A stretch of 64,000 nucleotides of DNA from Lineus longissimus (lineage: Eukaryota > Nemertea > Pilidiophora > Heteronemertea > Lineidae), in the NCBI RefSeq assembly GCF_910592395.1, contig NC_088312.1, positions 3,410,001 to 3,474,000 on the forward strand, given 5' to 3'. Below the pieces are notes generated by a model. That model saw only the letters and a list, made by a program, of their open reading frames with translations, was not told the origin of the DNA and did not search any database. Positions within the stretch are counted from its first letter, which is position 1. Each line of letters starts with the position of its first letter. The position numbers were made by a program, and so were the translations under genes. This document shows, in pieces, positions 1 through 20,505 of the stretch.

Positions 1-32
1 TAAGAGGATCTTAGCCCATATCGTACCCTCAC

Positions 33-440
33 CTTTTGTGCCGTAATAGTCCTCACATCACCAAGATGGGTCACGTTATCTTTGTGTTGCATCTTTGTTA
101 CATTAATTGCATCCTGGTCAATCTCGCTAGCAAAGTAGAATTCAACGTCAAAACCAAGTTGGTCGAGGACAAATTTTCCTGAAAAATGAGTCATATTCAA
201 AATCTTCTAAATAGAAAGCACCATGATACATAGTTTTGAACGGATGTAGCCCAGATTAGAGCCGAGTACAGCAGGGGCATATCTCCCAGCCCCTTGATGC
301 AATGAACTCCATAGTTGCATGTTTTGAAATCCTCCAGAGACGCATAACAACAATCTAATTCAATGCTTACCGGTGCCTATTCCATCAAAGAGGGACAACA
401 CCCTCATTCGATGAGTTGGGAGGTCCTCGGGTGTTGGAGG
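33..440 (-). other. DNMT3: DNMT3 exons coding for the start of the methyltransferase domain
   Basis: Two exons, 371-440 and 33-178. The first ends in RVLSLFDGIGTG, the S-adenosylmethionine-binding motif I of C5 methyltransferases. The codon for the last Gly is split by a phase-1 intron. The second continues KFVLDQLGFDVEFYFASEID and ends DVRTITAQK, matching the motif II/III region of DNMT3 enzymes. The donor after base 33 (GTGAGG) shows that more exons follow outside the window. Confidence 0.92.
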
Positions 441-3400
441 CTAAAAAGACATCAGTGACACAAAGATTGCTATCATTTTCTAAGTGTGTTATCTGTGTTC
501 TGCTCACAACTGCAACTCAAATGAGGCCTACTGGTACAAAGAGCATCATCTATCCCATGGAGATGCCACGGCTTAGCTAGATCGGGGACTTTCACGGAGG
601 TAGCTAACTTAGATGTAACTCTGCCAACAGGTGGTCGAAAGTACATACAGCATCTCGCCAAATCTTACCGAATATCAACGGATTGACAAATTGGGAATTC
701 ATCGTTGAAATCAACAAGGATAGCTGCAGATGTTTACAATTAACTCGAAAGTCAAGCTATTGTAGACACACCTTGGGCATGAGGAGAGCAGTCAAATATC
801 AACTGGTGTTAAGACTGATTGACAAATTGGGAATTCATTGTTGAAATCAACAAGGATGGGTGAAGATGTTTTCAAGTAACTCGTAAGTCAAGCTATTGCA
901 GACACAACTCGGACATGAGGAGAGCAGTCGATTCTGCTGGAGTGAACGGCAAAACTCTCCAAATTGGTGACAACTCATAAAACGTGGACTGTTGCCCAAC
1001 TGGTCGCCTTCTAAAATCAGTGTGACATACCTGTGAGCCAATGGTGTGATTGAAAAGACCGTGGACATTCTGTTTCCAGTTCGCCTTCTTGACCAATATG
1101 CCGTGGGTCTCTGGTTTGTGCTCGGAGCACATGAAGCATAGCCAAGGTTCTGTCTTGTGGATGAGGTCAATGGCTGATGGCGCCACAAGTTCTACGATGC
1201 AAACGGTGCAGTAGACCCTGCGATCGAGAGATTTGTTAAATCTTAGAATATTACAATTGAATCATTGTTTAGGATGCCCTTGTGAGGTGACAATGTTGTT
1301 CTTAAAGGGGTGCAATGTTCCAGCGCAATTTGACAATAAAATTAATCGACTGATAAGAAGTACTGACCTGTTGCATGCAGTCTTATCACAAACAAAGAGG
1401 TCTCCACCGTTTCCACAGATTATGCAGAAAAACTGAAACATATTGACAGCATTTTATAGTGTGTGTGTGTGTGGGGGGGGGGGGTCACGAAAGTAAGTTT
1501 TTATACCTTGGTATCGGGTGTCAAATCAACAACATTCGCACTGTGACCTTCCCCTGTCCCTAGTGTGCTTTGTTCATAGGTCAACATGACTAGTTCGTCA
1601 AACTCACCCCAGTCCCATCAGCACCAAAAGCAAACATAGTGTCCATCAATTCCTCCTTGCACATTTGGCACAGACCTCCTTCGAAGAATGGGTGCTGTAC
1701 AACCACCACGGCAGAGGTGGATGTACAGGCAAGACAGGTGTCTGAAAAGGAGAGACTGTTTCAACAACAGAGTCGCAACAAAGTCTACAATGTCAAAACA
1801 TCTTTGAGAAATCACTTGCGTCATGTTGTCATTCAGACTGTGAACTTTAAACTAGACAGATGCAAGTCAACCTGAGCCACCCTGATGAAGCCAAGAGGGG
1901 TAGAAACGTGCCTTGATGGAGCAACACAACAGCCCAACAATAGGAATCAGTGGACATTGTTGTAAACTACAGTTACAGTATCCAGTTTTACCTCTTTTCA
2001 TTTTACTACTATCCATTCTGAAAAGGAGAGACCAACATTTCTTGAGGGATTGAGAGGTTGCGCAGCCTTCCGACTGGGAGTGGGAGTGCATGTCAATCCA
2101 GTCCAGGGGAAGAAATGATAAGGGTAATGGTGAGAAGGCAGTCAGGATCCCAGACAAGGTGGTAGTCAAACGGTGGTGTCTCGGCACAATGTGTTCAGAG
2201 ATCCTCGCCTAACTGATAAACTTACCCGTAATAGCTCTTCTCCCACTTTGTATATCAGCCACTGCGTCTTCTGAGAAATACGAGAGTTAAATGGGGACTT
2301 TAGACATGGCAATGTTATATTGAAATAACAGATAGCAGGACCTTGGCAACACCAAGATGGCATTGAACACCCATTTGAAACGGTATACCAAATGATTCCT
2401 CTTACCCATTCTTAACTGATGACATAAAATGTGAAAAGGGATGATGTGCCTGATGTCTCTAGTATCTCAAAACCAAATTTTCATTAGCACAAAGAGCAAA
2501 CTCTCACATGAAACTAACCATGACTGCCATTCTTCCTCTGCTCCAAAACCTCTAATCTTGTTGGTTTCAATTCCCACTCTGTGACTCTCTCCTCGTTTTC
2601 CTTGACTTCCTTACTCCGTTTAATCTTGGCCGAGAGTGCTGCAACACCTTTGATGACAAAGTTTGGTAACTGCTGGTTGCCTTCAAGAAATTAAAGCTGA
2701 CATTTTGAGATAGGGAGGAGAGGCGCTTCATAGCTGCTGACTACCACGCAACAGGGCCCAGGTTTGATAAAGGGGAGGAACCTAGGATTGAATATCTAGA
2801 TGAACAAAAATTGCTCATTAACGGTGGTATCACTGGAGGTGCTGCAACAAAATCAGGCACTGCAGTGACTTGCAATTAAGATCGAACCCAGCGATTACTG
2901 GTATTATCAACATTGAAAGATCTTTTTGTTGCATGAAGCAGCAATTATACCTGCAGGTCGCAGAGATTTAAATCACTCACTTGTGCATTGCTTAAGTCCG
3001 ACCACTTACCCTTGGGTTCATCAAGCTGGCCTTGAAGCGATTTCCCATTTCGGGCTTTGAAGCCGTTTTCTGCCCACAGTAGCAGATCTTCCTCAGCTTT
3101 CCCAGGGGTGAAGCCAGCCCTTTCACAGCACACCTGAAAGTAACAAGATGACTATGTACACATCAACATGGCAGTTTCTATTCGGAAGCAATCAGTAGCC
3201 AAGAGAAACTAGCCCTGTGCTTCAGCCAATGAGGGAAATGTGTCAGGGGTTTGTGTGCTGCAGGGTCACAGAAGCGAACATTAACCTCTGATTTCCTCAG
3301 GATGCTCTCCCCTAAGCATACCCTTTGGTCTTCTAAGATAATGTTGAAAATGTTGAAACCCCTTTACCTGAATCGCCTCAACGACGGCCTTGTGGAATGT

Positions 3401-6400
3401 CTTGACCATGGTGGTACTTTTCTTCTTGTAGTTGAAGAAGTCAATGGTAAAAGGTCGGATCTTGCCATGAGCAACCTGGGGAACGAAATGTATCATGATA
3501 CCGGTAATCAAGAACATTTTTTTAGAGGATCAACTAAAATCATACACTGTAGGCTCCCCTCTTGGTCGATACATTCTACACAAGCACAGGGGCGGATTCA
3601 GGAGACGGAGGGAGAGGTGGTGCCCCTTTCTTTACGTGAATTTCTAATCACAAGGTCAAATATCTACGACAATTCAGGTCCAAGAGTTTATACTGCTAAA
3701 TGAGGCTGTTCTTCAATCCTGCGATGAAAGGACGACGATAATCTGAGGATTTCTTCTGACTAAAATCTTTGAAACCGGGTAACTCATCGACATAGCCGGC
3801 CCAGGTAATACCGCTGATTACTTTTGGTGTCAATAATGATCCAATTTTCAAACTTTTTTGCCATCTTTAACGTGTTAAAACTAAAAAACTGGGCCTGGTT
3901 TAGTCAAAATGCTATCACAGAAACATAACATGACATGTCTCCGAAATACTATCATGGCAACATAACTTAGGACATGTCTTACCTCAGACACCTTGTGGTC
4001 CCCAAACCAATATATCCAAGAGTTACCATAATTGGCAGCGTGAAGGTAACACATGTTTCCACGTACAATGATACCGGGCCACCATCTATGGCCACCAAAT
4101 CTGGCCCACACCAGTTTTCCAAGGAGTGGCTCCTGCAAAATGTGAAAGCATTGATTAAAAGAGGGATATTTGATGAGACAAATACTGCAACTGGCACCCA
4201 ACCGAAGTAGAATGCAACAAACACCCACTACAGAATTTTCAGGAGGAGAAGTTCTGCCCAAGAAACTAACCTGTTTGTCTGTGGTTGGCTCCATCAGTTT
4301 CGGCACGCTGGTAGATGCTGCAGGAGGTTTCGGGGAATCGGCTAATCTTCTTTTCACTACAGACCCATCCTGCCCATCCTCTCCACTCATCTCTGTCGCA
4401 GTCTTCGTCTTCGGCTCCTGTGGTTTGATTTGAAACAGGTCTGTCTTTGGTACATTTTCTCTCAGGCCGTACAATCCTCTACGCTGGTTGGTGGGCTGAT
4501 CTGAGAAGAGTTTCCGTTTTCGAGGAGACTTTGGTGTTGGTTCCTCTATTTCTTCCTGAGAAAGACAACGGATATGATTTGTCCCCAAGAGTGCAACCAT
4601 GGTGTTTATTCAATTATAATGATTTATCATCATGTTACAACAAACCAAAAACAAAAGAGAAGAAGGCATTCGAATAAAGAGCCATATTCTTGCATGAAAA
4701 AGTCATTAGTGCTGGAAGTGATAACAATTGCATACAACTTATTTACCCCTTCTACTGATAACCCCCATGTTCCTACTCACCTTCTCATTAACTGATGGCA
4801 CCATATCCTCAGGCACATTAGTAGGCACTGCCAACGCTTTCCCATGGTCAGCCGCCCTTGGGCGTCCCCTCTTCTTCTTAGATGCTTCTGGCTCCAGTTC
4901 AACTCTCAAGGGCTCCAGAGGCTTGGCAACAGCCTCAGACATCCCAGATGCATTCCAATGGTCAGCTGTCCTAGGGCGTCCCCTCTGTCGTTTCAGCCAT
5001 GTTCCTGCCCCTTTTTTCTCAACTGGTGGCGCCATCGCTGGGGCAGCAGTAAATTTAGCTGATGAATTAGCAGGTTTAGATGCAACAGGTTGTCCCCTTC
5101 GCTTTTTCGCTGGTGGTTCCATATCTGCCTCTTCATTATTATTGATATCTCGTGTCTTCCCTGTCTCCTGAGGTTTGATCGGGAATAGTTCCACTTTTGG
5201 GGCATTTTCTCTAAGGCCATATGAACGTTGGCGCTGGTTTGGCTGCCCTAACTGACGTTTTTTGCACTTTCGTTTCTTAACAGTCTTAGGAGTCGCCAAA
5301 CGCTCTTGTTTGGTGCCTGAAGCTTTATGTTCTTCGGATGCTTGAGGTACCACTTCATCATGCATGGCTACATATAGTATTTCTCCATCATGTGAAGCTG
5401 GCACTCGCTCATCAATGCCATGCGACAAGATTGGTTCTTCATTCTCACAAGTAGGCCTATGTTCCATTGGTAGCCCTCGTTCAATGTTGTTAAGTATTAC
5501 AAATAGTTCTTCAGGATCGCATGTAATCAAAGGGTCCGATTTGTCCGCATCAGACATCATCAATGGCTCCTCATCATCAGTGCTACACGTCATCAACACT
5601 TTCTGCCCAACAACTTCGTCGTGCAAATTGGAGCGTGTCAAAACTGTTTCTTCTTCATCATCATTGGGCACCAACAATGGTTTTTGTTCATCAACTCTAG
5701 GAGCAACTGATGGTCCTTGTTCATCAAGATTAGGAGCCACCAATGGTTCCTGTTCATCATCACCGGTGGCAATGATCTGTTCTCGTTCATCAACATTCGG
5801 AACCACCAAAGATTCTTGTTCATCAGCATTAGGAGCCACAAATGGTTCTTGTTCATCAGCATTAGGTTTTTGTTCATCTGCACTAGGTTCATGTTCACCT
5901 GCATTAGGTTCTTGTTCATTATGATTAAATTCTTGCTGATCAGCATCAGGAGAAACTGCTTGTTCTTTATCCTCATTGAGTGTCACCATCCACACCTGTT
6001 CATCCCGATCTTGTACAACAAGTGGCCCCTTCGCAACCGTCTCGCATGTCAAAACCAAATCTTCTTCATCTGCATGCTGGGTCAATAATGGCTCTTGTTC
6101 ATGTTGACCCTCTCTTACCGACTCAAGGTCAGCTGTGTTACTGGTCATGGTCCTCTGGTTTCGTTTCTTGAAAGACATCGCAACCGACGTCAGATGATTT
6201 TCTCCAACTGTCTTCAACCGCAATTCCTTATTATGAGATGACATGGACAGCTCAGGTTGAACTTTTTTGGTCGTTGCTTTCTTGGCAGTTCTCGTCTTGG
6301 GAGGTGACTTCAATGACTCAAGCTCTTCACTAATTGTCTCCAGTCCGTTCCTGCTCCTCTTACAAGATGACACTAACACATCGGTTTGACCACCTTTTTT

Positions 6401-9400
6401 GGTCCCAGCTTTCAATGTCTTGCGAGGTGACGCAAATTTATCATGATCATCCTTATTCGCATAGCTTTCTGTCTCAGTATCTCCTTTCATGAGGGATTTC
6501 AAAAACACTCCATCATCTTCTTCAATGGTTTCCAATTTGTTCCCTCTCTTCATCAGAGTTGACAGCAGTGACATACGTTTATCCTTTTTCTTTCTGCCCC
6601 TTCCTCTCGTTTGTGATGACACCCCTGGGTGATGTTCATCCGTTTTGGTCTTAAGGCTTTCCCTTTGTTTGCAAGATGACACAGATGGCTCACTTTGACC
6701 TTCTTTATCCTCTGTTCTGGCCTGTTCATCATCACGTTTGGTCCTGCTCCTTTCCCTCCTTGTCTTCTGTAATGACACTGTCGGCTCATTATCCTCATTT
6801 CTACTTGTCACTGGCCTGTCCGTTTTCTTGCGAGGCAACACAGATGGCTCAGTTGGATCATCCTTATGAGCCACTTTCTTAGCATTTCCTGTGTTGCAAG
6901 GTGGCGTCAATGTCTCATGACCACCAGGTATGGTCTCCAGCCTGGCCTTTCCTTTCTTGAGAGGGGAAACAAACAGCTCAGCCCCATCAGTTTTCTCAGC
7001 CACTTCCTCACCCTTTCCTGTCTTATGAGGTGACATCAACATATCATGTCCACCAGATTTGGTCATCCGCCTGGCCTTTCCTTTCTTGAGAAGGGGAACA
7101 AACAGCTCAGCCCCATCAGTTTTCTCAGCCACTTCCTCACCCTTTCCTGTCTTACGAGGTGACATCAACATATCATGTCCACCAGATTTGGTCATCCGCC
7201 TGGCCTTTCCTTTCTTGAGAGGGGAAACAAACAGCTCAGCCCCATCAGTTTTCTCAGCCACTTCCTCACCCTTTCCTGTCTTATGAGGTGACATCAACAT
7301 ATCATGTCCACCAGATTTGGTCATCGGCCTGGCCTTTCCTTTCTTGAGAGGGGAAACAAACAGCTCAGCCCCATCAGTTTTCTCAGCCACTTCCTCACCC
7401 TTTCCTGTCTTATGAGGTGACATCAACATATCATGTCCACCAGATTTGGTCATCGGCCTGGCCTTTCCTTTCTTGAGAGGGGAAACAAACAGCTCAGCCC
7501 CATCAGTTTTCTCAGCCACTTCCTCACCCTTTCCTGTCTTATGAGGTGACATCAACATATCATGTCCACCAGATTTGGTCAACCGCCTGGCCTTTCCTTT
7601 CTTGAGAGGGGAAACAAACAGCTCAGCCCCATCAGTTTTCTCAGCCACTTCCTCACCCTTTCCTGTCTTACGAGGTGACATCAACATATCATGTCCACCA
7701 GATTTGGTCATCCGCCTGGCCTTTCCTTTCTTGAGAGAGGAAACAAACAGCTCAGCCCCATCAGTTTTCTCAGCCACTTCCTCACCCTTTCCTGTCTTAC
7801 GAGGTGACATCAACATATCATGTCCACCAGATTTGGTCTCCGGCCTGGCCTTTCCTTTCTTGAGAGGGGGAACAAACAGCTCAGCCCAATCAGTTTTCTC
7901 AGCCACTTCCTCACCCTTTCCTGTCTTATGAGGTGACATCAACATATCATGTCCACCAGATTTGGTCTCCAGCCTGGCCTTTCCTTTCTTGAGAGAGGAA
8001 ACAAACAGCTCAACCCAATCAGTTTTCTCAGCCACTTCCTCACCCTTTCCTGTCTTACGAGGTGACATCAACATATCATGTCCACCAGATTTGGTCATCC
8101 GCCTGGCCTTTCCTTTCTTGAGAGGGGAAACAAACAGCTCAGCCCCATCAGTTTTCTCAACCACTTCCTCACCCTTTCCTGTCTTACGAGGTGACATCAA
8201 CATATCATGTCCACCAGATTTGGTCATCCGCCTGGCCTTTCCTTTCTTGAGAGGGGTAACAAACAGCTCAGCCCCATCAGTTTTCTCAGCCACTTCCTCA
8301 CCCTTTCCTGTCTTACGAGGTGACATCAACATATCATGTCCACCAGATTTGGTCATTCGCCTGGCCTTTCCTTTCTTGAGAGGGGAAACAAACAGCTCAG
8401 CCCCATCAGTTTTCTCAGCCACTTCCTCACCCTTTCCTGTCTTACGAGGTGACATCAACATATCATGTCCACCAGATTTGGTCATCCGCCTGGCCTTTCC
8501 TTTCTTGAGAGGGGAAACAAACAGCTCAGCCCCATCAGTTTTCTCAGCCACTTCCTCACCCTTTCCTGTCTTACGAGGTGACATCAACATATCATGTCCA
8601 CCAGATTTGGTCATCCGCCTGGCCTTTCCTTTCTTGAGAGGGGAAAGAAACAGCTCAGCCCCATCAGTTTTCTCAACCGCTTCCGCACCCTTTCCTGTCT
8701 TATGAGGTGACATCAACATATCATGTCCACCAGATTTGGTCTCCAGCCTGGCCTTTCCTTTCTTGAGAGAGGAAACAAACAGCTCAACCCAATCAGTTTT
8801 CTCAGCCACTTCCTCACCCTTTCCTGTCTTACGAGGTGACATCAACATATCATGTCCACCAGATTTGGTCATCCGCCTGGCCTTTCCTTTCTTGAGAGGG
8901 GAAACAAACAGCTCAGCCCCATCAGTTTTCTCAACCACTTCCTCACCCTTTCCTGTCTTACGAGGTGACATCAACATATCATGTCCATCAGATTTGGTCA
9001 TCAGCCTGGCCTTTCCTTTCTTGAGAGGGGGAACAAACAGCTCAGCCCCATCAGTTTTCTCAGCCACTTCCTCACCCTTTCCTGTCTTACGAGGTGACAT
9101 CAACATATCATGTCCACCAGATTTGGTCATCGGCCTGGCCTTTCCTTTCTTGAGAGGGGGAACAAACAGCTCAACCCAATCAGTTTTCTCAGCCACTTCC
9201 TCACCCTTTCCTGTCTTACGAGGTGACATCAACATATCATGTCCACCAGATTTGGTCATCAGCCTGGCCTTTCCTTTCTTGAGAGGGGGAACAAACAGCT
9301 CAGCCCCATCAGTTTTCTCAGCCACTTCCTCACCCTTTCCTGTCTTACGAGGTGACATCAACATATCATGTCCACCAGATTTGGTCATCGGCCTGGCCTT

Positions 9401-12106
9401 TCCTTTCTTGAGAGGGGAAACAAACAGCTCAGCCCAATCAGTTTTCTCAGCCACTTCCTCATCCTTTCCTGTCTTACGAGGTGACATCAACATATCATGT
9501 CCACCAGATTTGGTCTCCGGCCTGGCCTTTCCTTTCTTGAGAGGGGAAACAAACAGCTCAGCCCCATCAGTTTTCTCAGCCACTTCCTCACCCTTTCCTG
9601 TCTTATGAGGTGACATCAACATATCATGTCCACCAGATTTGGTCTCCGGCCTGGCCTTTCCTTTCTTGAGAGGGGAAACAAACAGCTCAGCCCAATCAGT
9701 TTTCTCAGCCACTTCCTCACCCTTTCCTGTCTTATGAGGTGACATCAACATATCATGTCCACCAGATTTGGTCTCCGGTCTGGCCTTTCCTTTCTTGAGA
9801 GGGGGAACAAACAGCTCAACCCAATCAGTTTTCTCAGCCACTTCCTCACCCTTTCCTGTCTTACGAGGTGACATCAACATATCATGTCCACCAGATTTGG
9901 TCATCCGCCTGGCCTTTCCTTTCTTGAGAGGGGGAACAAACAGCTCAGCCCCATCAGTTTTCTCAGCCACTTCCTCATCCTTTCCTGTCTTACGAGGTGA
10001 CATCAACATATCATGTCCACCAGATTTGGTCATCCGCCTGGCCTTTCCTTTCTTGAGAGGGGAAACAAACAGCTCAGCCCCATCAGTTTTCTCAGCCGCT
10101 TCCTCACCCTTTCCTGTCTTACGAGGTGACATCAACATATCATGTCCACCAGATTTGGTCATCAGCCTGGCCTTTCCTTTCTTGAGAGGGGGAACAAACA
10201 GCTCAGCCCCATCAGTTTTCTCAGCCACTTCCTCACCCTTTCCTGTCTTACGAGGTGACATCAACATATCATGTCCACCAGATTTGGTCATCAGCCTGGC
10301 CTTTCCTTTCTTGAGAGGGGGAACAAACAGCTCAGCCCCATCAGTTTTCTCAGCCGCTTCCTCACCCTTTCCTGTCTTACGAGGTGACATCAACATATCA
10401 TGTCCACCAGGTATGGTCTCCAGCCTGGCCTTTCCTTTCTTGAGAGGGGAAACAAACAGCTCAACCCAATCAGTTTTCTCAGCCACTTCCTCACCCTTTC
10501 CTGTCTTATGAGGTGACATCAACATATCATGTCCACCAGATTTGGTCTCCGGCCTGGCCTTTCCTTTCTTGAGAGGGGAAACAAACAGCTCAGCCTCATC
10601 AGTTTTCTCAGCCGCTTCCTCACCCTTTCCTGTCTTACGAGGTGACATCAACATATCATGTCCACCAGATTTGGTCATCCGCCTGGCCTTTCCTTTCTTG
10701 AGAGGGGAAACAAACAGCTCAGCCCCATCAGTTTTCTCAGCCACTTCCTCACCCTTTCCTGTCTTATGAGGTGACATCAACATATCATGTCCACCAGATT
10801 TGGTCTCCGGCCTGGCCTTTCCTTTCTTGAGAGGGGGAACAAACAGCTCAGCCCCATCAGTTTTCTCAGCCACTTCCTCACCCTTTCCTGTCTTACGAGG
10901 TGACATCAACATATCATGTCCACCAGATTTGGTCATCCGCCTGGCCTTTCCTTTCTTGAGAGGGGAAACAAACAGCTCAGCCCCATCAGTTTTCTCAGCC
11001 ACTTCCTCACTCTTTCCTGTCTTATGAGGTGACATCAACATATCATGTCCACCAGATTTGGTCATCGGCCTGGCCTTTCCTTTCTTGAGAGGGGGAACAA
11101 ACAGCTCAACCCAATCAGTTTTCTCAGCCACTTCCTCACCCTTTTCTGTCTTACGAGGTGACATCAACATATCATGTCCACCAGATTGAGTCATCAGCCT
11201 GGCCTTTCCTTTCTTAAATGAGGAAACAAACAGCTCAGCCCCATCAGTTTTCTCAGTCACTTCCTCACTCTTTCCTGTCTTACGAGGTGACATCAACATA
11301 TCATGTCCACCAGATTTGGTCATCGGCCTGGCCTTTCCTTTCTTGAGAGAGGAAACAAACAGCTCAGCCCCATCAGTTTTCTCAGCCACTTCCTCATCCT
11401 TTCCTGTCTTATGAGGTGACATCAACATATCATGTCCACCAGATTTGGTCATCGGCCTGGCCTTTCCTTTCTTGAGAGGGGAAACAAACAGCTCAGCCCC
11501 ATCAGTTTTCTCAGCCACTTCCTCACCCTTTCCTGCCTTATGAGGTGACATCAACATATCATGTCCACCAGATTGAGTCATCAGCCTGGCCTTTCCTTTC
11601 TTAAGAGGGGAAACAAACAGCTCAGCCCCATCAGTTTTCTCAGCCACTTCCTCACCCTTTCCTGTCTTACGAGGTGACATCAACATATCATGTCCACCAG
11701 ATTTGGTCATCGGCCTGGCCTTTCCTTTCTTGAGAGGGGAAACGGTCTGAGATCCATTGTCTTTCTCAGCCTCTGCCTCTGCATTTCCAGTCTTGTGAGG
11801 TGACGTTAACGTTGCATGACAACCAGGTTTGATCATCAGCCTGGCCTTTTCTTTCTTGAGAGGGGAAGCAATCACCTCAGCTCGATCGCCATTTTTAGCC
11901 ACAGTTTCAGCAATTCCCATCTTGAGAGGCAATGCCAGTGCTTCAGGAGCATCCTTTTTGGTCACTGGCCTGGTTTTTTTCTTGCGGGATGACAATAGCC
12001 GCTCAGCGTCACCATCTGTCTTGCTAGATGCCACCAACATTTCACGTTTCACTACATGACTGGCTACAAGCTGATCAGTAGTTTCCTTTGACCGAGAATG
12101 TTTCAT
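33..12106 (-). CDS. DNMT3: DNMT3-family de novo DNA (cytosine-5) methyltransferase with giant repeat-bearing N-terminus (3' end outside window)
   Basis: De novo cytosine-5 DNA methyltransferase acting on chromatin in the nucleus. I assemble twelve minus-strand coding exons: 4781-12106, 4271-4555, 3983-4132, 3368-3475, 3010-3133, 2519-2680, 2226-2270, 1608-1741, 1368-1432, 1031-1217, 371-440 and 33-178. All have AG/GT borders and compatible phases, giving 2,934 uninterrupted codons. Order: repeat-rich basic region, AT-hooks, PWWP, ADD, then methyltransferase motif I (SLFDGIGTG) and the following FASEID segment. This order (PWWP, ADD, catalytic domain) is diagnostic of DNMT3. The catalytic PCN motif and C-terminus lie beyond base 1. 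Vertebrate DNMT3A/B are about 850-910 residues; this protein would exceed 3,100, almost all of the excess being the repeat exon. The 5' end is unresolved: exon 4781-12106 starts in phase 0 and could follow a short exon at 12250-12264 or the exon at 12510-13463. Confidence 0.9.
681..930. repeat. Diverged tandem duplication (about 113 bp, offset 136) in a DNMT3 intron
   Basis: Copies at 681-793 and 817-930 both begin GATTGACAAATTGGGAATTC and both end ATGAGGAGAGCAGTC, with scattered substitutions. They lie in the intron between the ADD and catalytic exons, and the right copy ends about 100 bp before the ADD exon. No coding potential seen. Confidence 0.85.
1031..1741 (-). other. DNMT3: DNMT3 exons coding for the ADD (ATRX-DNMT3-DNMT3L) zinc-finger domain
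   Basis: Exons 1608-1741, 1368-1432 and 1031-1217. All six cysteine pairs expected of an ADD domain can be read: TCLAC and LCQMC (GATA-like finger), FFCIIC with VYCTVC, and FVCDKTAC with LCFMC (PHD-like finger). In the family this domain reads unmodified H3K4 and holds the enzyme autoinhibited until it binds. The pairing is intact, so the fold is probably functional. Confidence 0.92.
2226..3133 (-). other. DNMT3: DNMT3 linker exons between PWWP and ADD domains
   Basis: Exons 3010-3133, 2519-2680 and 2226-2270 (45 bp). The first starts VCCERAG and aligns with the end of the DNMT3 PWWP helical tail; I chose the donor AAGG|GTAAGT because it alone keeps phase with the next exon. The second encodes NQQLPNFVIKGVAAL and a charged stretch. 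The 45-bp exon (DAVADIQSGRRAIT) connects in phase 1 on both sides to the ADD start. These linker residues are poorly conserved in the family, so exact borders are less certain. Confidence 0.75.
3243..3304. repeat. Fold-back element, copy 1 (in a DNMT3 intron)
   Basis: GTCAGGGGTTTGTGTGCTGC followed by AGCGAACATTAACCTCTGAT and TTCCTCAGGATG. Shares these blocks in order with the copies at 20506-20564 and 38296-38392; its left arm is shortened. Confidence 0.6.
3368..4132 (-). other. DNMT3: DNMT3 exons coding for the PWWP domain
   Basis: Exons 3983-4132 and 3368-3475, both in phase 0. The first encodes LLGKLVWARFGGHRWWPGII and later WIYWFGDHKVSEV, the β-barrel core of a PWWP domain of the DNMT3 type. 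The second encodes the helical tail (FHKAVVEAIQ). In DNMT3A/B this domain binds H3K36me2/3 through an aromatic cage of Phe, Trp and Asp. Here the Trp (second W of WWPG) and the Asp (of WFGD) are present, but the cage Phe position is His (GGHRWWPG). Confidence 0.92.
5640..5935 (-). repeat. Coding acidic DEQEP-type repeats in the giant DNMT3 exon
   Basis: Imperfect repeats of about 7-15 residues around the core (N/V)DEQEP, e.g. NADEQEPFVAP, NVDEREQ, NLDEQGPSVAP, RVDEQKPLLVP. They form an acidic block between the basic 43-residue array and the AT-hook region. On the plus strand they appear as recurring GTTCATC words. Disordered and strongly negative; no known domain. Confidence 0.8.
6921..11770 (-). 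repeat. Coding 129-bp tandem array, about 38 units of 43 residues
   Basis: Units repeat at exactly 129 bp with no visible indels from about 6921 to 11770; diverged units continue to about 11,980. The unit holds KSGGHDMLMSP, KTGKGEEVAEKTD, AELFVSPLKKGKAR in order. Most units carry two S-P-x-K/R motifs (MSPRK or MSPHK, and VSPLK). Variation is mostly single transitions, e.g. MSPR/MSPH, DGAELF/DWVELF, VSP/VPP/VSS. S-P-x-K/R is both the CDK phosphorylation consensus and the SPKK-type minor-groove DNA-binding motif known from histone H1 tails. Which role applies here is inference. Confidence 0.95.
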
Positions 12107-12249
12107 CTGAAAGAGAATCACTTTTGAAATATATTTCATCAGACCGTATGACTTGGGTTTGCAGTGGAAAGTTGTGTATTTTCCCTGAAATATACAAAAT
12201 TATAACTGGTCCAACACAACCAGTCAAGCAAGGATCTTGAAACTCCCAC

Positions 12250-12264
12250 CTTTGACGACGCCAT
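12250..12264 (-). other. Possible alternative first coding exon of DNMT3 (five codons)
   Basis: An ATG at 12264 opens the codons MASSK and is followed by a plausible but weak donor (AAAG|GTGGGA). This leaves phase 0, as needed to join exon 4781-12106. The stretch upstream (12265-12400) is a CpG-containing leader-like sequence without a better ATG. This would make DNMT3 start here and leave the exons at 12510-15548 as a separate or alternative 5' end. Evidence is only splice-site and phase compatibility. Confidence 0.35.
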
Positions 12265-12509
12265 TGACTACAGTCCAAATCACAATAGACATCCGTTCGC
12301 GCGAGTTAAGTGTCAATGACGCACTTATCTCTCTGTGTTTCTGTTTCTGTTCTACCAGAGATGAGATTTGCACGGACTCCAAACTCCAATCCAATTATGT
12401 TACTTTGCCGCTGGGGACGACTTAGACAATCATTTTCTTGAAAAAATTTACAAGCATCTACTTTTGCCAAAGCAAGTCACAAATGGTTAAATAAAAACAT
12501 TAGACTTAC

Positions 12510-15500
12510 CAATTTCTTAGATGCTAACGATGCTCTGGTGGCAATTCTGGCTCCGCCTGGAACTGGTGTTGCTTTCTGGCACTTCCGAAGCGATTGCTCC
12601 CTTCTCTCGATATCTTTGAGCTTGGTCCGGCGGATGGTGAAGTTCGTAATCCTGGTTGTGTCATTCAGTTGATAATTCACCCCAGTAACTTCTGGCATAT
12701 CCTCCACCTGCAACGCCAAAGTTTTCCCAGTCTCTACAAATTCGTTGAAAGACCTCTGAAACCCAGAGTCTCCAGTCAGTGTAGGCTCTATACCAAGTCG
12801 TCTTGCATCCTTAGAAAGCCGAGGACCAAATGGCAAGGATATTTTATCATCTGACTTGTTAAACTGTCCAACAGTAGGTGATTCGGAACACACAGAGGCT
12901 TCACCACTCTGCCCTTGTGTTGGTGTATCAAACAGTCCTGGTAGTGTCCCAATTTGAGATTTTGACACTGGTGTGTCTAACATTGTTCCATACGACTCAA
13001 GTTGTTGAATAGGTATCTCAACTTGAGATGATGGAATTGGTGTAACCATCAGATAATGTGGCTCAGCTGTATGCAGCCAATGTTGTGATACAGGAGTCTC
13101 AAGCTGAGATCTCAGTACAGATGTCTCAAGTGGAGATTTTAGTACAGGGGTATCAAACTCTGGTATTGGCAGATGTGTCTCAACTTGAGATTTAGGTTTC
13201 TCTAATCGAGATTTTTGTGCAGATGTCTGAAACTCAGATTGTGGCTGATCTGACTTTCTTTCTTGAGCAGGTTTCTTGACTCGAGATTCTGACAGAGAAG
13301 TAGGCCCATAAAACTGGTTCTTTGGCACTAGTCTCAGAGCTTGACCTTTAGGCATAGGAGTATCAACCTGAGGTGCAGCAACAACCCCATCAATGATTTG
13401 ACCACGTTGTCTTACTGAAGTTTGGGTTCGGGATGATTCTCCTGTCTGGGATTTTGATCTGGACTAAAATTAAAGAACAGGGACATATTTCAGCAAATTC
13501 CAAATCACTGGTTGCCATGGTTATACACATCCGGTATTTGGCAAACAGAGTTACATCTACAGCGCATGCCAGTTCTAGAACAAAGACATTGTGACATCAC
13601 AAGACAGGGGATAGGGGACCTGTCCCAAAAAATGTTGGCGAAATCCTAAAACTATCCTCAGCTCCTACCGAAACCTGCTTAACTTAGGGTGCCCAACTGG
13701 GGAATTTGGCAGAGGTGTCTCAACTTGAGATTATGGCAGGGGTGTCTCAACTGGGGATTTTGGCAGAGGTGTCTCAACTGGGGATTTTGGCAGATGTGTC
13801 TCAACTGGGGATTTTGGCAGAGGTGTCACAACTGGGGATTTTGGCAAAGGTGTCTCAACTGGGAATTTTGGCAGAGGTGTCTCAGCTGGGGATTTTGGCA
13901 GAGGTGTCTCAACTGGGGATTTTGGCAGAGGTGTCTCAACTGGGGATTTTGGCAGAGGTGTCTCAGCTGGGGATTTTGGCAGAGGTGTCTCAGCTGGGGA
14001 TTTTGGCAGAGGTGTCTCAACTGGGGATTTTGGCAGAGGTGTCTCAGCTGGGGATTTTGGCAGAGGTGTCTCAACTGGGGATTTTGGCAGAGGTGTCTCA
14101 ACTGGGGATTTTGGCAGAGGTGTCTCAACTGGGGATTTTGGCAGAGGTGTCTCAACTGGGGATTTTGGCAGAGGTGTCTCAGCTGGGGATTTTGGCAGAG
14201 GTGTCACAACTGGGGATTTTGGCAGAGGTGTCTCAACTGGGAATTTTGGCAGAGGTGTCTCAGCTGGGGATTTTGGCAGAGGTGTCACAACTGGGGATTT
14301 TGGCAAAGGTGTCTCAACTGGGAATTTTGGCAGAGGTGTCTCAGCTGGGGATTTTGGCAGAGGTGTCTCAACTGGGAATTTTGGCAGAGGTGTCTCAGCT
14401 GGGGATTTTGGCAGAGGTGTCTCAACTGGGGATTTTGGCAGAGGTGTCTCAGCTGGGTATTTTGGCAGAGGTGTCTCAACTGGGGATTTTGGCAGAGGTG
14501 TCTCAACTGGGGATTTTGGCAGAGGTGTCTCAACTGGGGATTATGGCAGGGGTGTCTCAACTGGGGATTTTGGCAGAGGTGTCTCTACTGCAGATTTTGG
14601 CAGAGGTGTCTCAGCTGGGGATTTTGGCAGAGGTGTCTCAACTGTGGATTTTGGCAGAGGTGTCTCAGCTGGGGATTTTGGCAGAGGTGTCTCAACTGGG
14701 GATTTTGGCAGAGGTGTCTCAACTGGGGATTTTGGCAGAGGTGTCTCAACTGGGGATTTTGGCAGAGGTGTCTCAACTGGGGATTTTGGCAGAGGTGTCT
14801 CAACTGGGGATTTTGGCAGAGGTGTCTCAACTGGGGATTTTGGCAGAGGTGTCTCAACTGGGGATTATGGCAGGGGTGTCTCAACTGGGGATTTTGGCAG
14901 AGGTGTCTCTACTGCAGATTTTGGCAGAGGTGTCTCAGCTGGGGATTTTGGCAGAGGTGTCTCAACTGTGGATTTTGGCAGAGGTGTCTCAGCTGGGGAT
15001 TTTGGCAGGAGTGTCATAACTGGGGATATTGGCAGAGTTGTCACAACTGGGGATTTTGGCAGAGGTGTCTCACCTGGGGATTTTTGCAGAGGTGTCTCTC
15101 CTGCGGATTTCGGCAGAGTTGTCTCAGCTGGGAATTTGGCAGAGGTGTCACAATGGGGGATTGTGGCAGAGGTGTCTCTACTGCAGATTTTGGCAGAGTT
15201 GTCTCAACTGGGGATTTTGGCAGAGGTGTCTCAACTGTGGATTTTGGCAGAGGTGTCTCAACTGGGGATCTTAGCAGAGGTGTCTCAACTAAACTGTCTC
15301 AACTGGGCAAACTGACTTTACAGAATGCATGGGCTACTCTAAACTTGAAAGGAAAGATGCCTTTAAAAAATTTCACTCACCCATAATTTTTTTGCTGAAA
15401 CCACCACCGTTGTATCAACACCCCAGCCCGACTGGCCATCTATCAAACTTGTCTGCTCCCGCCATCTTCTTGTAGAAGGATGGGGAGGTTTACCACTCCG

Positions 15501-15548
15501 CATCTCAGTGGATTTGCTAGTGGTAGTTTTAGACCCTTTGTGCTCCAT
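12510..15548 (-). CDS. Two-exon basic/Ser-Pro-rich N-terminal region, possibly the 5' end of the DNMT3 gene
   Basis: Exon 15381-15548 starts with an ATG (MEHKGSKTTTSKS...) and ends ...VSAKKLW|GTGAGT in phase 0. Exon 13463-12510 follows a TTTTAG acceptor, encodes SRSKSQTGESS... and ends ASKKL|GTAAGT, again phase 0. Together they give 374 codons, low-complexity and rich in Ser, Thr, Pro and basic residues. Nine-residue repeats of the type VETHLPIPE, FDTPVLKSP, LETSVLRSQ lie in the middle. The last 110 residues (from about RRLGIEPTLTGDSG to TIRRTKLKDIERRE) look more ordered, but I do not recognise a domain. The next phase-0 acceptor downstream is that of the giant DNMT3 exon at 12106, so a single gene is possible. 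A separate gene would need an undetected 3' exon. Confidence 0.6.
13690..15310. repeat. 27-bp minisatellite, about 60 copies, inside an intron
   Basis: Unit GGGGATTTTGGCAGAGGTGT followed by CTCAACT, repeated at 27 bp. Because 27 is a multiple of three, several frames stay open on both strands. Read on the minus strand the unit is VETPLPKSP, the same nine-residue pattern as degenerate repeats in exon 12510-13463. The minus frame is broken by TAA at units near 13731, 14541 and 14865 (CCAAAA changed to CCATAA), so the array is most simply intronic. A block of 12 units (324 bp) around 14541 is repeated at 14865. Confidence 0.95.
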
Positions 15549-16494
15549 CGTTGAATTTGAAGTATGATTATGCTACAGTCTAGTGTAGGCCCTTGTGGGC
15601 TACCGATACAAACTGAAATGAAATAATGAAATAAATTAAATAGTTTTGGTCATGAAATAGTTTTGGCTTTGTGCAACCTCATGGTCTTTACTTCATTTAA
15701 CTGTAATTGGGATGAATCTTGTCAGATGCAAACCTTGGTCGTCAATGTCTTGTAGACTAGGGACGCTTAGGCCCTAATGCCAGCATGTAGTGAGACTACT
15801 TCATAGTGTTGAAAGTGACAAACTGTTGGCCTCGGCCTAATGGGTTATAATACTGTTGCTCATCTTGCATAAATTTTTTTCAAAATGGCCGGACTGGCAC
15901 TATCTGTTTGATGGGCAATAGTGCAGCAAGACACGAAGCTGAAGGCCACCTTATCAGTGACATTGATATCACCATACAGGCCAAGTTGATAATAGCAGCT
16001 AGGCTCATTCTCAGATTCTAGTCGAACTCATAATGCTAACCGCATTCTACACATAGTATGCAATGCATGGGTTAATACCCAGTCGCCATTAGAGAGAGTC
16101 GTTGGCAAGGCGACCCCCCTAATATTACCTGACGAAGAAAACGCAACTGACAAGACCCGCTAAAAGATACACTAAACACGATCTTAGTTGTCAGATTATA
16201 TACCATCAACTTCTGAAAACTTACTTAACTCTGCGGAAACTTGAGAAAGTGATGATAATCAGCTGTTCCGAAATTGACAAGTGGCCCGTCACGTGATGAA
16301 ATAAAATTGAATCTAAGATGGGTTTACTGAAAAACGCAAAATGACTGGGCGGAATCCCGCCTGCCACGTGGCGTTCTTGAGCACATATAAAAGCGCGAGA
16401 AAAGGAAAAAAGTTGGACATGGGCGGGGACATGCTACCGGTGTAACTGTTTTAGATGTCCCGGCTATGAACAGAGTGTTCTGCACATTTGCTCG
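15549..16494. promoter_or_regulatory. Promoter-like spacer upstream of exon 15381-15548
   Basis: No convincing gene. The stretch holds CACGTG palindromes at about 16292 and 16364, a GGCGGAATCCCGCC palindrome resembling an E2F-type site (about 16349), and a TATA-like CATATAAAAG on the plus strand at about 16383. The minus-strand gene starts at 15548 and a plus-strand transcript might start near 16415, so this could be a divergent promoter. Assignment rests on short motifs only. Confidence 0.3.
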
Positions 16495-16588
16495 GTGGCG
16501 GTTATGATATGTTTCTATGGAAAACCCGGTAATTTCTTCACAGAAGAATTATTAGTCGCTGGACACTTTATCTATTCCTATGGACTGA

Positions 16589-16689
16589 TTTTCCTGCACC
16601 AGTCCTCCAACACAGTGCACCAGTGCACCAGTCCTCCAACACAGTGCACCAGTTCTCCAACACTGTGTTGGAGGACTGGTGTAGGAAAA
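16589..16689. repeat. Inverted repeat with 25-bp arms plus direct copies
   Basis: Left arm 16589-16613 and right arm 16665-16689 are complementary with one mismatch. A second, nearer left arm at 16647-16663 pairs with 16665-16681 around a single base (17-bp arms, one mismatch). The motif CACCAGTCCTCCAACAC therefore occurs twice directly plus once with a mismatch, and once inverted. Downstream to about 16,943 a plus-strand reading frame stays open, but it matches no family I know. Confidence 0.85.
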
Positions 16690-16965
16690 TGATAAACAAC
16701 ATTGACTACAACCAGAATAGTATTTCAATAGTCGTTGCTACCACCTTGGAGTTCTCGAGGCATAACAGAGTCGTGCAAATACGGATCCATCCTGTACTGC
16801 AGTGCAACATTCGGGCCGACCATAACCGAAAAGTGTGCGAGGAGAGGAACATTCCACTGAGTCTGGTATTCGATTATTGTAATGACCCTGTTCTGACAAT
16901 AATCTTCAACATCTTGAGGGTGAAATTTAAACGAACTACTTAAGGAGTAACTACTTATCCCGGGT

Positions 16966-17050
16966 ACACTCCGGACGCATTGGACCGGCCTCGTTCTGTC
17001 CTGAGATCTAATTAGGACGACGCAATAGAGTGCCGCGGGAGTCTATTCCC
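16966..17050. repeat. Dispersed repeat, copy A
   Basis: Shares TCCGGACGCA(T/G)TGGAC, GGCCTCGT, AATTAGGA and GACGCAAT...TGCC, in the same order, with 20585-20675. A shorter relative lies at 18665-18700. Probably an old non-autonomous element; no terminal features are clear. Confidence 0.6.
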
Positions 17051-17109
17051 GGGGTACTTAAAATGGATCAACTGATCAGCGTAACGCTGAAAGGGTGGAT
17101 GTCGTCCTG

Positions 17110-17720
17110 GGGGTATCTGCCCATTCCGCCTTAACCTTATTCGCCTTATCCAATTTTGCCTTCTCCCATTTAGCCTTCTCCTAACTTGCCTTTTCTCAAT
17201 TCGCCTTCTACGATTTCGCCATCGTCTTATCTCGCCTTTGTTCCAATTGGCCTTCTTCCTAACTCGCCTTCCTCTCATCTTGCCTCATCCTAGTTTGCCT
17301 TTTCTTATTTCGCCTTTGTCCTATTCTGCCTTGGTTCCATCCTGCCTTATCTCATCTTGCCTTTTCTTGATTGACCTTTGTGTCAATTCGCCTCCCCTTC
17401 TTCCCATTTTGCCTTCTCCCGTTTCGCCATATCTCACCTCGCCTTTTATCAATCCGCCTTTGCTTATCTTGCCTTTGTTCTATTTTGCCTTGTTGTCAAT
17501 TAGCCTTCGTTTATCTCGCCTTTTTTTATTTTGCCTTTGACTCATTACGCCTTCTTCCCATTTTGCCTTCTCTCGTTTTGAGATACGGATCTCCCCTTAC
17601 CTTTCATCAACTCGCCTTCGCTTATCTGCCTTTAGTTCTATTTGGCCGTGTTGTCAATTCGCCCTTGTTTTTCATTCCATTCTGCATTTTCTCATCTTGC
17701 CTTTTCTAGATTTGGCGAAT
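17110..17720. repeat. Pyrimidine-rich degenerate short tandem repeat (TTCGCCTTN...)
   Basis: About 600 bp in which the word CGCCTT, TGCCTT or AGCCTT recurs roughly every 14-16 bases, separated by pyrimidine-rich spacers such as TTCTCCCATT. The strand asymmetry (C/T on plus) is strong. Open frames over it are by-products of the repeat. Confidence 0.8.
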
Positions 17721-18664
17721 GCAGGATGGGGAGAAAAACCGCCTCCTCACCATTGTTCAGAAAGTCACTGTTTTACTTACACATGTTGCCAATTTCGTTT
17801 GCTGTACTTGCCGGTGTAGGTGATGTGGATGCAAATAAAGACTAGCTGAATGGTCTAGGAATATCTCTAAGTCGTCAGAACGAAGGTTTAATGAGTTGGA
17901 GACTTTGAAGTGGAGGAGTGGAACATGGTACTTATTAGGGTTTGTCTCAGTGACACTAGGATAGTCCACTGCGTCAGGAGTGTAGTAAAGTACTAGTAGT
18001 TACTGATACGAATACTTGATATCGTGCTAGTGAGGGGTTTGCAGCTGATGGAGCTGGGGAGTTGGGACCATATCTCCAACATTCAGAGCTTTTATGAGAT
18101 TAACTCAAAAGAGAACATTAAAACTGTTGGAAGTTATGACATTATCCAGTCATATAACTAATTGCCCTATTAACTTGGTATCCAAGAAAAGGATAAAACT
18201 AACGTTTTATAATGGATGAATACATTTCCTCTTTAATATCAAAATATGAAACTAAAACAGTATACAATATCAAACTATGTAAATTTAATAAAACAGTTAA
18301 CGATATTGAATTTTTAAACAAGCAGATCAATACAGAACATCGGCCTTATGATGTCACAATGAGCACATACCTCAAAATGTCCATGCTATGCATCTATGGT
18401 CATAACAGGCTTATTGTAGAATTGAACGGGGAAACTTTCATTTTAAAACTACATGTATACATTGTATTATAAGAAATGGCCTCCAGCGGTTCATGAAGAC
18501 GATTCATGACATCTAAAAAAATAAATCAATAGGAAATGCATCACAAACATCATCATGACTACCAGCAGACCATTCAAAATCGATGCTAAAATATACTAAG
18601 CTTGAATATGGTCCAGTAAATAAATCAACTCTAGTATTATTTACCGTATAACTATATGAGACTA

Positions 18665-18700
18665 AAATTGATGACGCAATGGACTGCCCCGAGAATCTAA
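18665..18700. repeat. Dispersed repeat, short copy C
   Basis: AATTGATGACGCAATGGACT followed by GCCCC matches the central part of the copies at 16966-17050 and 20585-20675. Confidence 0.5.
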
Positions 18701-18734
18701 GCCGCCCTAGCTTCGGTTCAATTTGCTCATTGCT

Positions 18735-19425
18735 GTTTCAGCTCTCTAACCGTGACAACACGGTGGCCAGCCAGGACCAATTCGGCCTGGTTGTGACTGT
18801 CTCATCTCTCTCACCGTGTTGACACGGGTGGATGGTCGGGTCGTGAGATGTTCCCAGTCGGGTCGGATTCGGTCTGACCGCAACTGTCTCATCTTTTCTT
18901 TTCGTGTCGACGGAGCTGCCAGGTCTAATTCGGTCTTGTTGTGACTGTCTCATCTCTCTCACCGTGTTGACACGGATGGATAGTCGGGTCGCGAGATGTT
19001 CCCAGTCGGGTCGGATTCGGTCTTACTGCGACTGTCTCATCCCTCTTTTCATGTCGACGGAGCTGCCAGGTCCAATTCGGTCTGGTTGTGACTGTCTCAT
19101 ATCTCTCACCGTATTGACACGGATGGATAGTCGAGTTGCGAGATGTTCCCAGTCTTGTCGGATTCGGTCTTACTGCGACTGTCTCATCCCTCTTTTCGTG
19201 TCGACGGAGCTGCCATGTCTATTACGGTCTGGTTGTGACTGTCTCAACCCAATTACTGTGTTGGATCGAGTACCCATGGCCAGGTTCGATTCAATCATGT
19301 TGTGGCTATCCCATCTCCCGCACCATGTTGCAATACGGCGGAGTTCTGAGGTCCAATTTGTTCTAGTCGTGACGGCGGTGGAGCTGCCAAGTATGATTCG
19401 GTCTGGTTGACTTTCTCAGCTCTCA
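18735..19425. repeat. 147-148-bp tandem array, about 4.5 units
   Basis: The marker TTGTGACTGTCTCA recurs at about 18791, 18939, 19086 and 19233. Each unit contains two related halves (GTGACTGTCTCATCTCTCTC and GCGACTGTCTCATCCCTCTT types), a GTTGACACGG or GTCGACGGAG segment and GAGCTGCCAGGTC. So the unit is itself an ancient duplication. Not coding: the frames open across it are repeat artefacts. Confidence 0.88.
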
Positions 19426-19978
19426 CCAGGTGTCGAGAGCCTCCGACAGCTGGTTATTTTGACAGTTGAATTCTGACCTGGCAGCTCCACCGTGTTACCC
19501 ACTTGGATGCAATACCGAACGCGCTGGTATCATTGGTTCGAGGTTGCCCATCTTTGTGTGAGTGAATGGAGGAGACTGGTGAAAGAGTCTACATTTTATT
19601 AGGTTTTGACGGCTCCTGACCGAGGGCACATTAAAAGATGAGCGAGGAGAATCGCCTTTGTTTTAGCTCCTGGTCCGGTGCCTGGCTAGTGTTACTGTCA
19701 GTTTTTATGGCTCTTGACTAATTACATTGTTTGTGATGGCTCCTGACCAATCTGCCCAATAACATTAACCATCATTGAAAAGGAAAAACTGATAACATAA
19801 TATATTTCATGGGGTAAAATATTACTGTCATCACCGGTCGCAACGTAACGGCGCCTGGTAACTTGACAGTAGAGGAAACAAATAGCAAAAATGTACATAC
19901 AGTACACAGTACAAGTCTGCCCTAAATTGAACCATCAATCACGTTTTCAATTGTTTCTTGCATCATTAAAATGAAGAA

Positions 19979-19983
19979 GAAAA
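19979..19983 (-). terminator. RNA polymerase III terminator of tRNA-Sec
   Basis: A run of five T on the minus strand (AAAAA on plus), 22-26 nt after the 3' end of the tRNA, the first T-run of at least four after it. Confidence 0.6.
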
Positions 19984-20004
19984 ATAATTGTGCTTGGTAG
20001 AAGA

Positions 20005-20091
20005 CGCCCGAAAGGTGGAATTGAACCACTCCGACGTCAGTCGGCTACAGGTTTGAAGCCTGCACCCCAGACCACTGAGGCTCATTCGGGC
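20005..20091 (-). tRNA. tRNA-Sec (selenocysteine, anticodon TCA)
   Basis: An 87-nt gene on the minus strand starting GCCCGAATGAGCCTCAGTGG and ending CCACCTTTCGGGCG. Acceptor ends GCCCGAA/TTTCGGGC pair, and the anticodon loop CTTCAAA sits on the stem GCAGG...CCTGT. It has the long variable arm and the 9-bp acceptor plus 4-bp T-stem layout typical of eukaryotic tRNA-Sec. It carries selenocysteine to recoded UGA codons in selenoprotein synthesis. The match to the animal tRNA-Sec consensus is nearly complete, with substitutions mainly in the acceptor end and variable arm. CCA is not encoded, as expected. A single intact copy with its own external promoter elements argues that it is functional. 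Confidence 0.95.
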
Positions 20092-20114
20092 ACTATACCA
20101 TTACTAGTCATGTG

Positions 20115-20122
20115 CTTTATAT
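20115..20122 (-). promoter_or_regulatory. TATA box of the tRNA-Sec gene
   Basis: ATATAAAG on the minus strand, 24-31 nt upstream of the tRNA start. Animal tRNA-Sec genes are known to use an upstream TATA box (and a PSE about 60 nt upstream) rather than depending only on internal boxes. A PSE may lie around 20140-20165, but I cannot define it. Confidence 0.7.
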
Positions 20123-20505
20123 GTAGTGTGAATAACGACAGTTAATCTCCCATGGTTTTAATTCCACTTAGCACCAGATATAATTTGCATCTAATGCATA
20201 AAGAAGTCAATTCCTATGTAAGTTTCAACATCTTGTGCTTTATGCAAGATAGTTGAATAAATATCTGATGAATTTTTTAAAATTTTGTCTCATCTCCTTG
20301 GATGATTTTGATGAGACAATTACATGAATACAAATGTCGGTCACAAAGTAATACTTGTCTGTTGGTTTTAATCAATATATAGGCCTACAAGTACATTTTG
20401 TCTGTTATCACAATAGAATATAGGCCTATTCATAACATATAATGATAATGCTATGCTAATGCAATGATGCCAATTAGTTGGTGACTACATCAAGAACTTA
20501 TCACC

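Follow-up and report, generated by a model that had tools for sequence, protein, structure and literature searches.

A predicted DNMT3 of the nemertean Lineus longissimus with a giant disordered repeat N-terminus and a duplicated docking exon

The targeting of DNMT3 enzymes outside vertebrates is poorly known, and the locus considered here raises the question of whether a DNMT3 gene of the nemertean Lineus longissimus begins next to its PWWP domain or extends upstream into a giant exon made largely of repeats. The window (the whole stretch of DNA analysed, 64,000 nucleotides of contig NC_088312.1, in which all positions below are counted) carries at its left end, on the minus strand, a series of DNMT3 exons (E2-E12) preceded by the giant exon (E1). 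The explanation that we prefer, with a probability of roughly one half, is that this nemertean DNMT3 is made from a long transcript including E1, whose repeat array would act as a switchable tether. The reading frame, the splice phases, the array and the duplication of an exon are plain features of the sequence.

The downstream exons (E2-E12, 4555-33, minus strand) join in phase without a stop, giving 492 residues when spliced, and by sequence comparison they are those of a DNMT3 (PWWP, ADD and the start of the methyltransferase):

4271-4555, minus strand: E2, N-terminal exon of the DNMT3 part, with an LR-x8-F docking motif at 4465-4433
3983-4132, minus strand: E3, PWWP domain (PF00855, 31.5 bits, cut-off 25.6; DNMT3B chains matched in the PDB)
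3368-3475, minus strand: E4, after the PWWP match, aligned to the L. longissimus protein P0001
2226-3133, minus strand: linker to the ADD domain (E5, 3133-3010; E6, 2680-2519; E7, 2270-2226)
1031-1741, minus strand: ADD zinc-finger domain (E8, 1741-1608; E9, 1432-1368; E10, 1217-1031)
33-440, minus strand: start of the C5 methyltransferase domain (E11, 440-371, with SLFDGIGTG; E12, 178-33), which continues beyond the window edge

The ADD domain is of the DNMT3 type (PF21255, 33.4 bits, cut-off 27, on the E10 stretch). The match of PF00145 to the E12 fragment reaches 12.9 bits with a cut-off of 22, the domain being cut by the window edge, and SLFDGIGTG is presumably methyltransferase motif I. 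A search with the 492 residues as a query, which covered proteins of about 271-861 residues, returned 57 proteins at an E-value of 0.001 among 7,994 candidates scored, the best being a DNMT3B-like protein of Lineus longissimus itself (P0001), which is listed with PF00145. The alignment with P0001 is gapless, with 385 of 405 residues identical (95%), so this independent gene model agrees with the E2-E12 junctions; the last 8 residues of E2 are covered by P0001, 7 of them identical. At this level of identity the gene in the window may be a paralogue, or a strongly diverged allele, of the gene behind P0001.

Upstream of E2, a minus-strand frame is free of stops from 12199 to 4742 (2,486 codons). 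Within it lies E1, 7,326 nt or 2,442 codons without a stop, delimited by the acceptor ATTCTCTTTCAG and the donor GTGAGT and in phase 0 at both ends. This bears out the first-pass annotation of this DNA, which had described a single 7.3-kb exon in phase with the DNMT3 exons. The exon comprises, in this order and with boundaries of our own choice, a 99-residue head, the array, ~265 residues containing older, degenerate units, then an acidic stretch, a duplicate of E2 and a part with AT-hook cores:

4781-12106, minus strand: E1, giant exon, phase 0/0; an alternative in-phase acceptor would place its start at 12184
6782-11809, minus strand: array of a 43-residue unit (39 anchors), with a net charge of +96 and a total of 60 [S/T]-P-x-K/R sites
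5312-5986, minus strand: acidic stretch, 225 residues long with a net charge of -47, containing DEQEP-type repeats
5012-5293, minus strand: duplicate of E2, with an LR-x8-F docking motif at 5215-5183
4984-4973 and 4870-4859, minus strand: two RGRP AT-hook cores, identified as pattern matches

The AT-hooks that had been placed after the array may correspond to the two RGRP cores; the AT-hook family gave no Pfam match in E1 at an E-value of 0.1.

The coding status of E1 rests on the flanks of the array, because selection within the array is uninformative (see below). Outside the array the E1 frame stays open for 815 codons, while the next-longest run in the window outside this array and a 27-bp one farther upstream has 328 codons (E0, a candidate exon described below). 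Codon usage, scored after training on 683 codons (E2-E12 and one exon of a neighbouring gene that we take to be HTATSF1-like), is best in the claimed frame of all six for the E1 head, the post-array part of E1, the array, E0 and a further candidate exon, E-1. The 2,001 nt of E1 after the array score 0.19, compared with -0.28 for a non-coding null (standard deviation 0.04, maximum -0.17, 500 draws). Pfam searches at an E-value of 0.1 found no histone or linker-histone domain in E1 or E0. Matches of E1 to WH_2nd_NFRKB, Vgb_lyase, YnfE, RNA_lig_T4_1 and BiPBP_C were rejected: the first four top the whole-protein cut-off, but the best stretch of all five lies inside the array and four of the five families lack any single stretch above threshold (Vgb_lyase has two). 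Such matches are the expected sums of weak repeat matches and were therefore discarded.

Is E1 joined to DNMT3? The first-pass annotation had read the fusion from splice phase; it is well supported by more than that, namely by the duplicate of E2, by selection at the core of the duplicate and by a unique perfect donor. The end of E1 (5293-5012) aligns with residues 7-95 of E2, nearly the whole exon, with a BLOSUM62 score of 129 (shuffle mean 35.8, maximum 65, 2,000 shuffles). In a gapless 25-codon core, picked for its similarity, the proportion of synonymous differences (pS) is 0.75 and that of non-synonymous differences (pN) is 0.15 (Fisher p 1e-5 on rounded counts), which argues that both copies have been kept as protein by purifying selection. 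A scan of 1-13500 on the minus strand for the donor [A/C]AG/GT[A/G]AGT (the slash outside brackets marks the splice site) gave a single match, which closes E1 and is in phase 0 with the acceptor of E2. Judged from these sequence features, some transcripts at least very probably have E1 joined in frame to the DNMT3 exons. The duplication of the E2 exon with its docking motif, the acidic stretch and two further in-phase exons upstream are absent from the first-pass annotation.

Several observations weigh against the long transcript. The P0001 model has its first Met within E2, and a Tubulanus model (P0002) begins within the PWWP region. Read-through past the E1 donor meets an in-frame stop at the 14th codon, and the intron between E1 and E2 contains an AATAAA, at 4610. 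Array-free queries yielded no homologues of the upstream part: residues 1745-2486 of the E1 open reading frame matched none of 4,156 candidates at an E-value of 0.01 among proteins of about 1,367-4,350 residues, and E0 with the E1 tail matched none of the 7,976 candidates with the most shared words at an E-value of 0.1 among proteins of about 549-1,747 residues; other protein lengths and giant DNMT3s with an unrelated N-terminus lay outside both searches. The stop, the AATAAA and the start of P0001 would agree with two separate genes, one upstream, of unknown function, comprising E-1, E0 and E1 and ending behind E1, the other being DNMT3, which would begin at E2. We regard this division as highly improbable, given the conserved duplicate of a DNMT3 exon inside E1, the location of the region's sole perfect donor exactly at the E1 end and in phase with E2, and the frequency with which AATAAA arises in shuffles of that intron (9.7%).

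The start of P0001 bears also on another explanation, less improbable than two genes yet still unlikely, in which E1 is an optional exon confined to a minor or germline transcript and the main DNMT3 is a short isoform starting at or in E2. An ATG at 4600, in the frame of E2, runs into E2 without splicing and could thus start such an isoform, as could the Met of P0001. In human DNMT3A, too, some isoforms contain the N-terminal docking region and others lack it, according to passages of PMC11266573 and PMC11624362. No CpG-rich, promoter-like gap is found at 4601-4750, however, where a single CpG occurs in 150 bases, though the 400-base window from 4300 (E2) reaches an observed/expected CpG ratio of 0.66. 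Gene models of repeat-rich exons are frequently cut short, for which reason the start of P0001 is weak evidence.

If E1 belongs to the DNMT3 gene, as we prefer, the gene may extend further upstream through two candidate exons:

12510-13463, minus strand: E0, putative exon of the gene, 318 codons, phase 0/0, with degenerate copies of a 9-residue SPVETPLPK unit
15381-15548, minus strand: E-1, candidate first coding exon and putative member of the gene, ATG at 15548, 56 codons, donor TGG/GTGAGT, phase 0

The donor of E-1 is in phase 0 with E0 and that of E0 (TTG/GTAAGT) in phase 0 with E1, and the in-window model of E-1, E0 and E1-E12 amounts to 3,308 residues without a stop. E0 has a codon score of 0.10 (null mean -0.29, standard deviation 0.07, maximum -0.07), while E-1, with 0.13, scores best of the six frames yet falls inside the null range (maximum 0.23). 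E0 has no Pfam match at an E-value of 0.1 and no PDB match at an E-value of 10, and its structure predicted alone, without an alignment, shows no confident fold (mean predicted local distance difference test score, pLDDT, 38.5). With the 239 residues of P0001 beyond the window end added to the in-window model, the protein is estimated at about 3,170 residues with E1 and at about 3,550 if E-1 and E0 belong.

A 27-bp minisatellite is located between E-1 and E0 (13694-15290); its minus frame reads SPVETPLPK and is rich in SP and TP. We rejected it as a coding exon, as each of its two best minus frames contains 7 stops and the third 49. A similar 9-residue unit occurs in frame in E0, and E0 and the adjoining minisatellite may share an origin.

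The CpG content of the region was compared with this extent. In 1-kb bins the observed/expected ratio is at most 0.61 in all 16 bins of 1-16,000, 0.73-1.10 in the six bins of 16,001-22,000 and 0.27-0.76 over 22,001-38,000. Outside the repeat arrays it amounts to 0.48 (1-4780), 0.52 (rest of E1), 0.38 (E0) and 0.35 (15291-16000); the low CpG of the two arrays adds little to the argument, each array being one repeated unit. Methylation in invertebrates is found mainly in gene bodies, as described in a part of PMC11292947, so that the depleted 1-16,000 region has the look of a single transcribed block, which starts at ~16 kb and runs on past the window edge. The ratio rises locally to 0.74-0.78 in 400-base windows starting at 12000-12300, and this rise may mark a promoter just before E1. 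It would then be promoter-like evidence, together with an ATG exactly at the exon start, for E1 as the first DNMT3 exon, translated from the ATG at 12106, with E-1 and E0 belonging to another gene. We consider this arrangement doubtful, since the E0 donor is in phase 0 with E1, the E0-E1 intron contains neither AATAAA nor ATTAAA, and E-1, E0 and E1 are all in phase 0.

The array itself is regular in its period. Tandem Repeats Finder places 38.9 copies of a unit of 129 bp at 6869-11881 (95% matches, 0% indels), and the 39 anchors follow one another at exactly 43 residues in 37 of 38 steps and at 42 in the remaining one, which agrees with the ~38 units of 43 residues counted in the first-pass annotation. 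Its count of over 60 S-P-x-K/R motifs in total is likewise borne out (62 in E1, 59 of them within the array). That most units carry two motifs is true by a bare majority: two [S/T]-P-x-K/R sites are present in 22 of the 39 units, one in 16 and none in one. The likening of the motifs to those of histone H1 is weakened, as the strict H1 or sperm-histone form, SP[K/R][K/R], accounts for only 25 of the 62; the other 37, mainly SPHK and SPLK, count against the explanation that we prefer. In the array, 38 of the 39 units retain the first S-P-x-K/R motif unbroken, and 37 of 38 do so if the units are counted off every 43 residues and not anchored on the motif itself. The predicted structure of two units shows no secondary structure (mean pLDDT 56). 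A two-unit block with identical rare residue variants recurs six units apart, at 8974-8717 and 8200-7943, and points to a recent block exchange within the array.

The array is young and homogeneous, with 3.4 substitutions per copy relative to the consensus. Purifying selection is not seen: the 36 distinct variants comprise 30 non-synonymous and 6 synonymous ones and fit neutrality (p 0.26), and the lack of any stop among them has a 30% chance under neutrality. Array-internal selection was accordingly dropped as a proof of coding, the absence of stops being uninformative in a young array. The unsuppressed non-synonymous changes and the youth of the array would be expected of a passenger repeat, i.e. 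a coding minisatellite grown by unequal exchange and tolerated in a disordered linker, with no function of its SP motifs; in the same vein the second SP motif is broken in 17 of 39 units, and a second minisatellite, of 27 bp, lies between E-1 and E0. Two observations run counter to this explanation, which we hold to be rather unlikely: the near-complete preservation of the first motif, though in a young array this may be chance, and an excess of S-P-x-K/R motifs in E1 outside the array, old units included (3 seen, 0.66 expected by shuffling, P 0.025).

The two copies of E2 share the LR-x8-F docking motif, which has exactly two matches in the 2,934-residue model of E1-E12, one in E1 and one in E2; in E2, but not in E1, the F is followed by a Q. 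In both copies the L, R and F are spaced as L180, R181 and F190 are in human DNMT3A1, and they lie N-terminal to the PWWP domain. Among the first 32 of the 57 DNMT3 relatives, ten have LR-x8-[F/Y] N-terminal of a PWWP domain located by pattern (P0003, P0005, P0015, P0016, P0019, P0021-P0024 and P0030; Y in P0019 and P0024), several of the ten being closely related to one another. They include proteins of the limpet Patella (P0005), the sponge Oscarella (P0016), the tubeworm Lamellibrachia (P0030) and fish (P0019, P0023, P0024). As for the other 22, 10 have fewer than 70 residues before the PWWP domain, 9 have no PWWP domain found by pattern and 3 have a motif-free N-terminus; P0031, without a pattern-found PWWP domain, has an LR-x8-Y match. 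This distribution, from sponge to fish, suggests that the LR-x8-[F/Y] docking core is an old feature of DNMT3, and the occurrence of the core in E1 is a further argument for joining E1 to the DNMT3 exons.

When 60,551 stop-free six-frame windows were scored with a matrix built from 7 of the 10 sites, the copy in E2 came first and the one in E1 sixth; within the protein model they came first and second. Four chance windows thus outscore the E1 copy, which speaks for caution, and so does the failure of a docking-motif profile (5 sequences, 44 positions) to reach any PDB chain at an E-value of 10; the link with DNMT3A1 consequently rests on spacing and position. In DNMT3A1 the motif belongs to the ubiquitin-dependent recruitment region (UDR), whose C-terminal helix contacts ubiquitin on H2AK119; no such helix was recognised after the motif here, by eye only and with no comparison run. 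According to parts of PMC11266573, R181 of human DNMT3A1 inserts into the acidic patch of the nucleosome and F190 packs against histone H3; in vitro, R181A nearly abolishes nucleosome binding and F190A lowers it more than 1000-fold. A further point on the negative side is that R181A was without appreciable effect in human cells, as reported in passages of the same paper.

We propose, tentatively, that the array could work as a charge-switched tether. Long, disordered and positively charged, it would hold DNA and chromatin through multivalent low-affinity contacts, one or two LR-x8-F motifs would dock on the nucleosome surface, and the PWWP and ADD domains would read histone H3. Phosphorylation of the ~60 sites of the type used by cyclin-dependent kinases (CDK) would take the array from a net charge of +96 to about -24 (computed with all [S/T]-P-x-K/R sites phosphorylated); this loss would loosen the tether in mitosis or after fertilisation, and the tether would be restored afterwards. 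Charge blockiness of the array is above that of 300 shuffles and is shifted barely by phosphorylation (0.242 to 0.254), so a Ki-67-like gain in blockiness is not indicated, whereas a loss of net charge is.

More speculative, and in our opinion improbable, is a wider reading in which DNMT3 would be a giant chromatin scaffold that combines dozens of weak CDK-switchable DNA contacts and two docking motifs in one chain. If so, methylation could spread along chromatin by avidity and be directly coupled to the cell cycle or to the sperm-to-zygote chromatin change, with a dose set by the variable repeat number. Even without that, if the long protein is made, the worm would offer a natural experiment on whether cell-cycle kinases can gate de novo methylation by multivalent tethering: its methyltransferase would bear ~60 CDK-type sites and two docking motifs, in a genome with the CpG depletion that gene-body methylation predicts. 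The protein would belong to a known kind, DNMT3, its novelty lying in the putative N-terminal part, a giant disordered repeat region that includes a duplicate of the docking exon. An open-access literature search, based on partial texts, found no work on the DNMT3 N-terminus of a nemertean or on a DNA methyltransferase bearing SPKK motifs, which is not proof of absence; nemertean DNMT3 is not treated in the DNMT3 and nemertean passages of PMC12153100 and PMC10658182.

The rest of the window was surveyed for neighbouring features. Over the window the observed/expected CpG ratio is mosaic (low at 1-16000, high at 16001-22000, low at 22001-38000, high at 38001-53000) and tracks gene bodies where these are discernible, which we take as a sign of germline gene-body methylation in L. 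longissimus. The other features are:

22519-31527, plus strand: the presumed HTATSF1-like gene, ATG at 22519, head to head with the DNMT3 gene, with RRM matches at 23519-23884 (below the Pfam cut-off) and 31075-31527 (above it)
18770-19246: tandem repeat with a 147-bp unit (91% matches over 3.2 copies), within the CpG-rich DNA that separates the DNMT3 and HTATSF1-like genes
52829-53743, plus strand: open reading frame (304 codons) with many Ala-Pro repeats and, close to its start, a hydrophobic stretch

Compared with known systems, the worm gene resembles DNMT3A and DNMT3B in the order PWWP-ADD-methyltransferase and in the L180-R181-F190 spacing of its N-terminal motif, and differs from them in its giant repeat N-terminus, the second copy of the docking motif and the AT-hook cores. 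That DNMT3 N-termini can change is illustrated by the fish Dnmt3b paralogues with a calponin-homology domain (described in part of PMC5513168), which have likewise gained a new N-terminal part; in fish, however, this is a folded domain and here a disordered repeat array, with no sign of a common origin. Strict SPKK motifs bind the minor groove of AT-rich DNA, and phosphorylation of their serine inhibits the binding, according to passages of PMC9903204. The SPKK-bearing sperm histones H2B and H1 treated there share with E1 the S-P-basic-basic motifs (25 strict ones in E1) and phosphorylation as a possible off switch, but they have up to seven motifs, whereas E1 has no histone fold and over half of its motifs are not strict. 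Ki-67, as portrayed in part of PMC9106583, is similar in its disordered tandem repeats, CDK-type sites and alternating charge; its repeat family is not among the Pfam matches of the window proteins, and the chief effect of phosphorylating the worm array, in contrast to Ki-67, would be a loss of net positive charge, blockiness passing only from 0.242 to 0.254.

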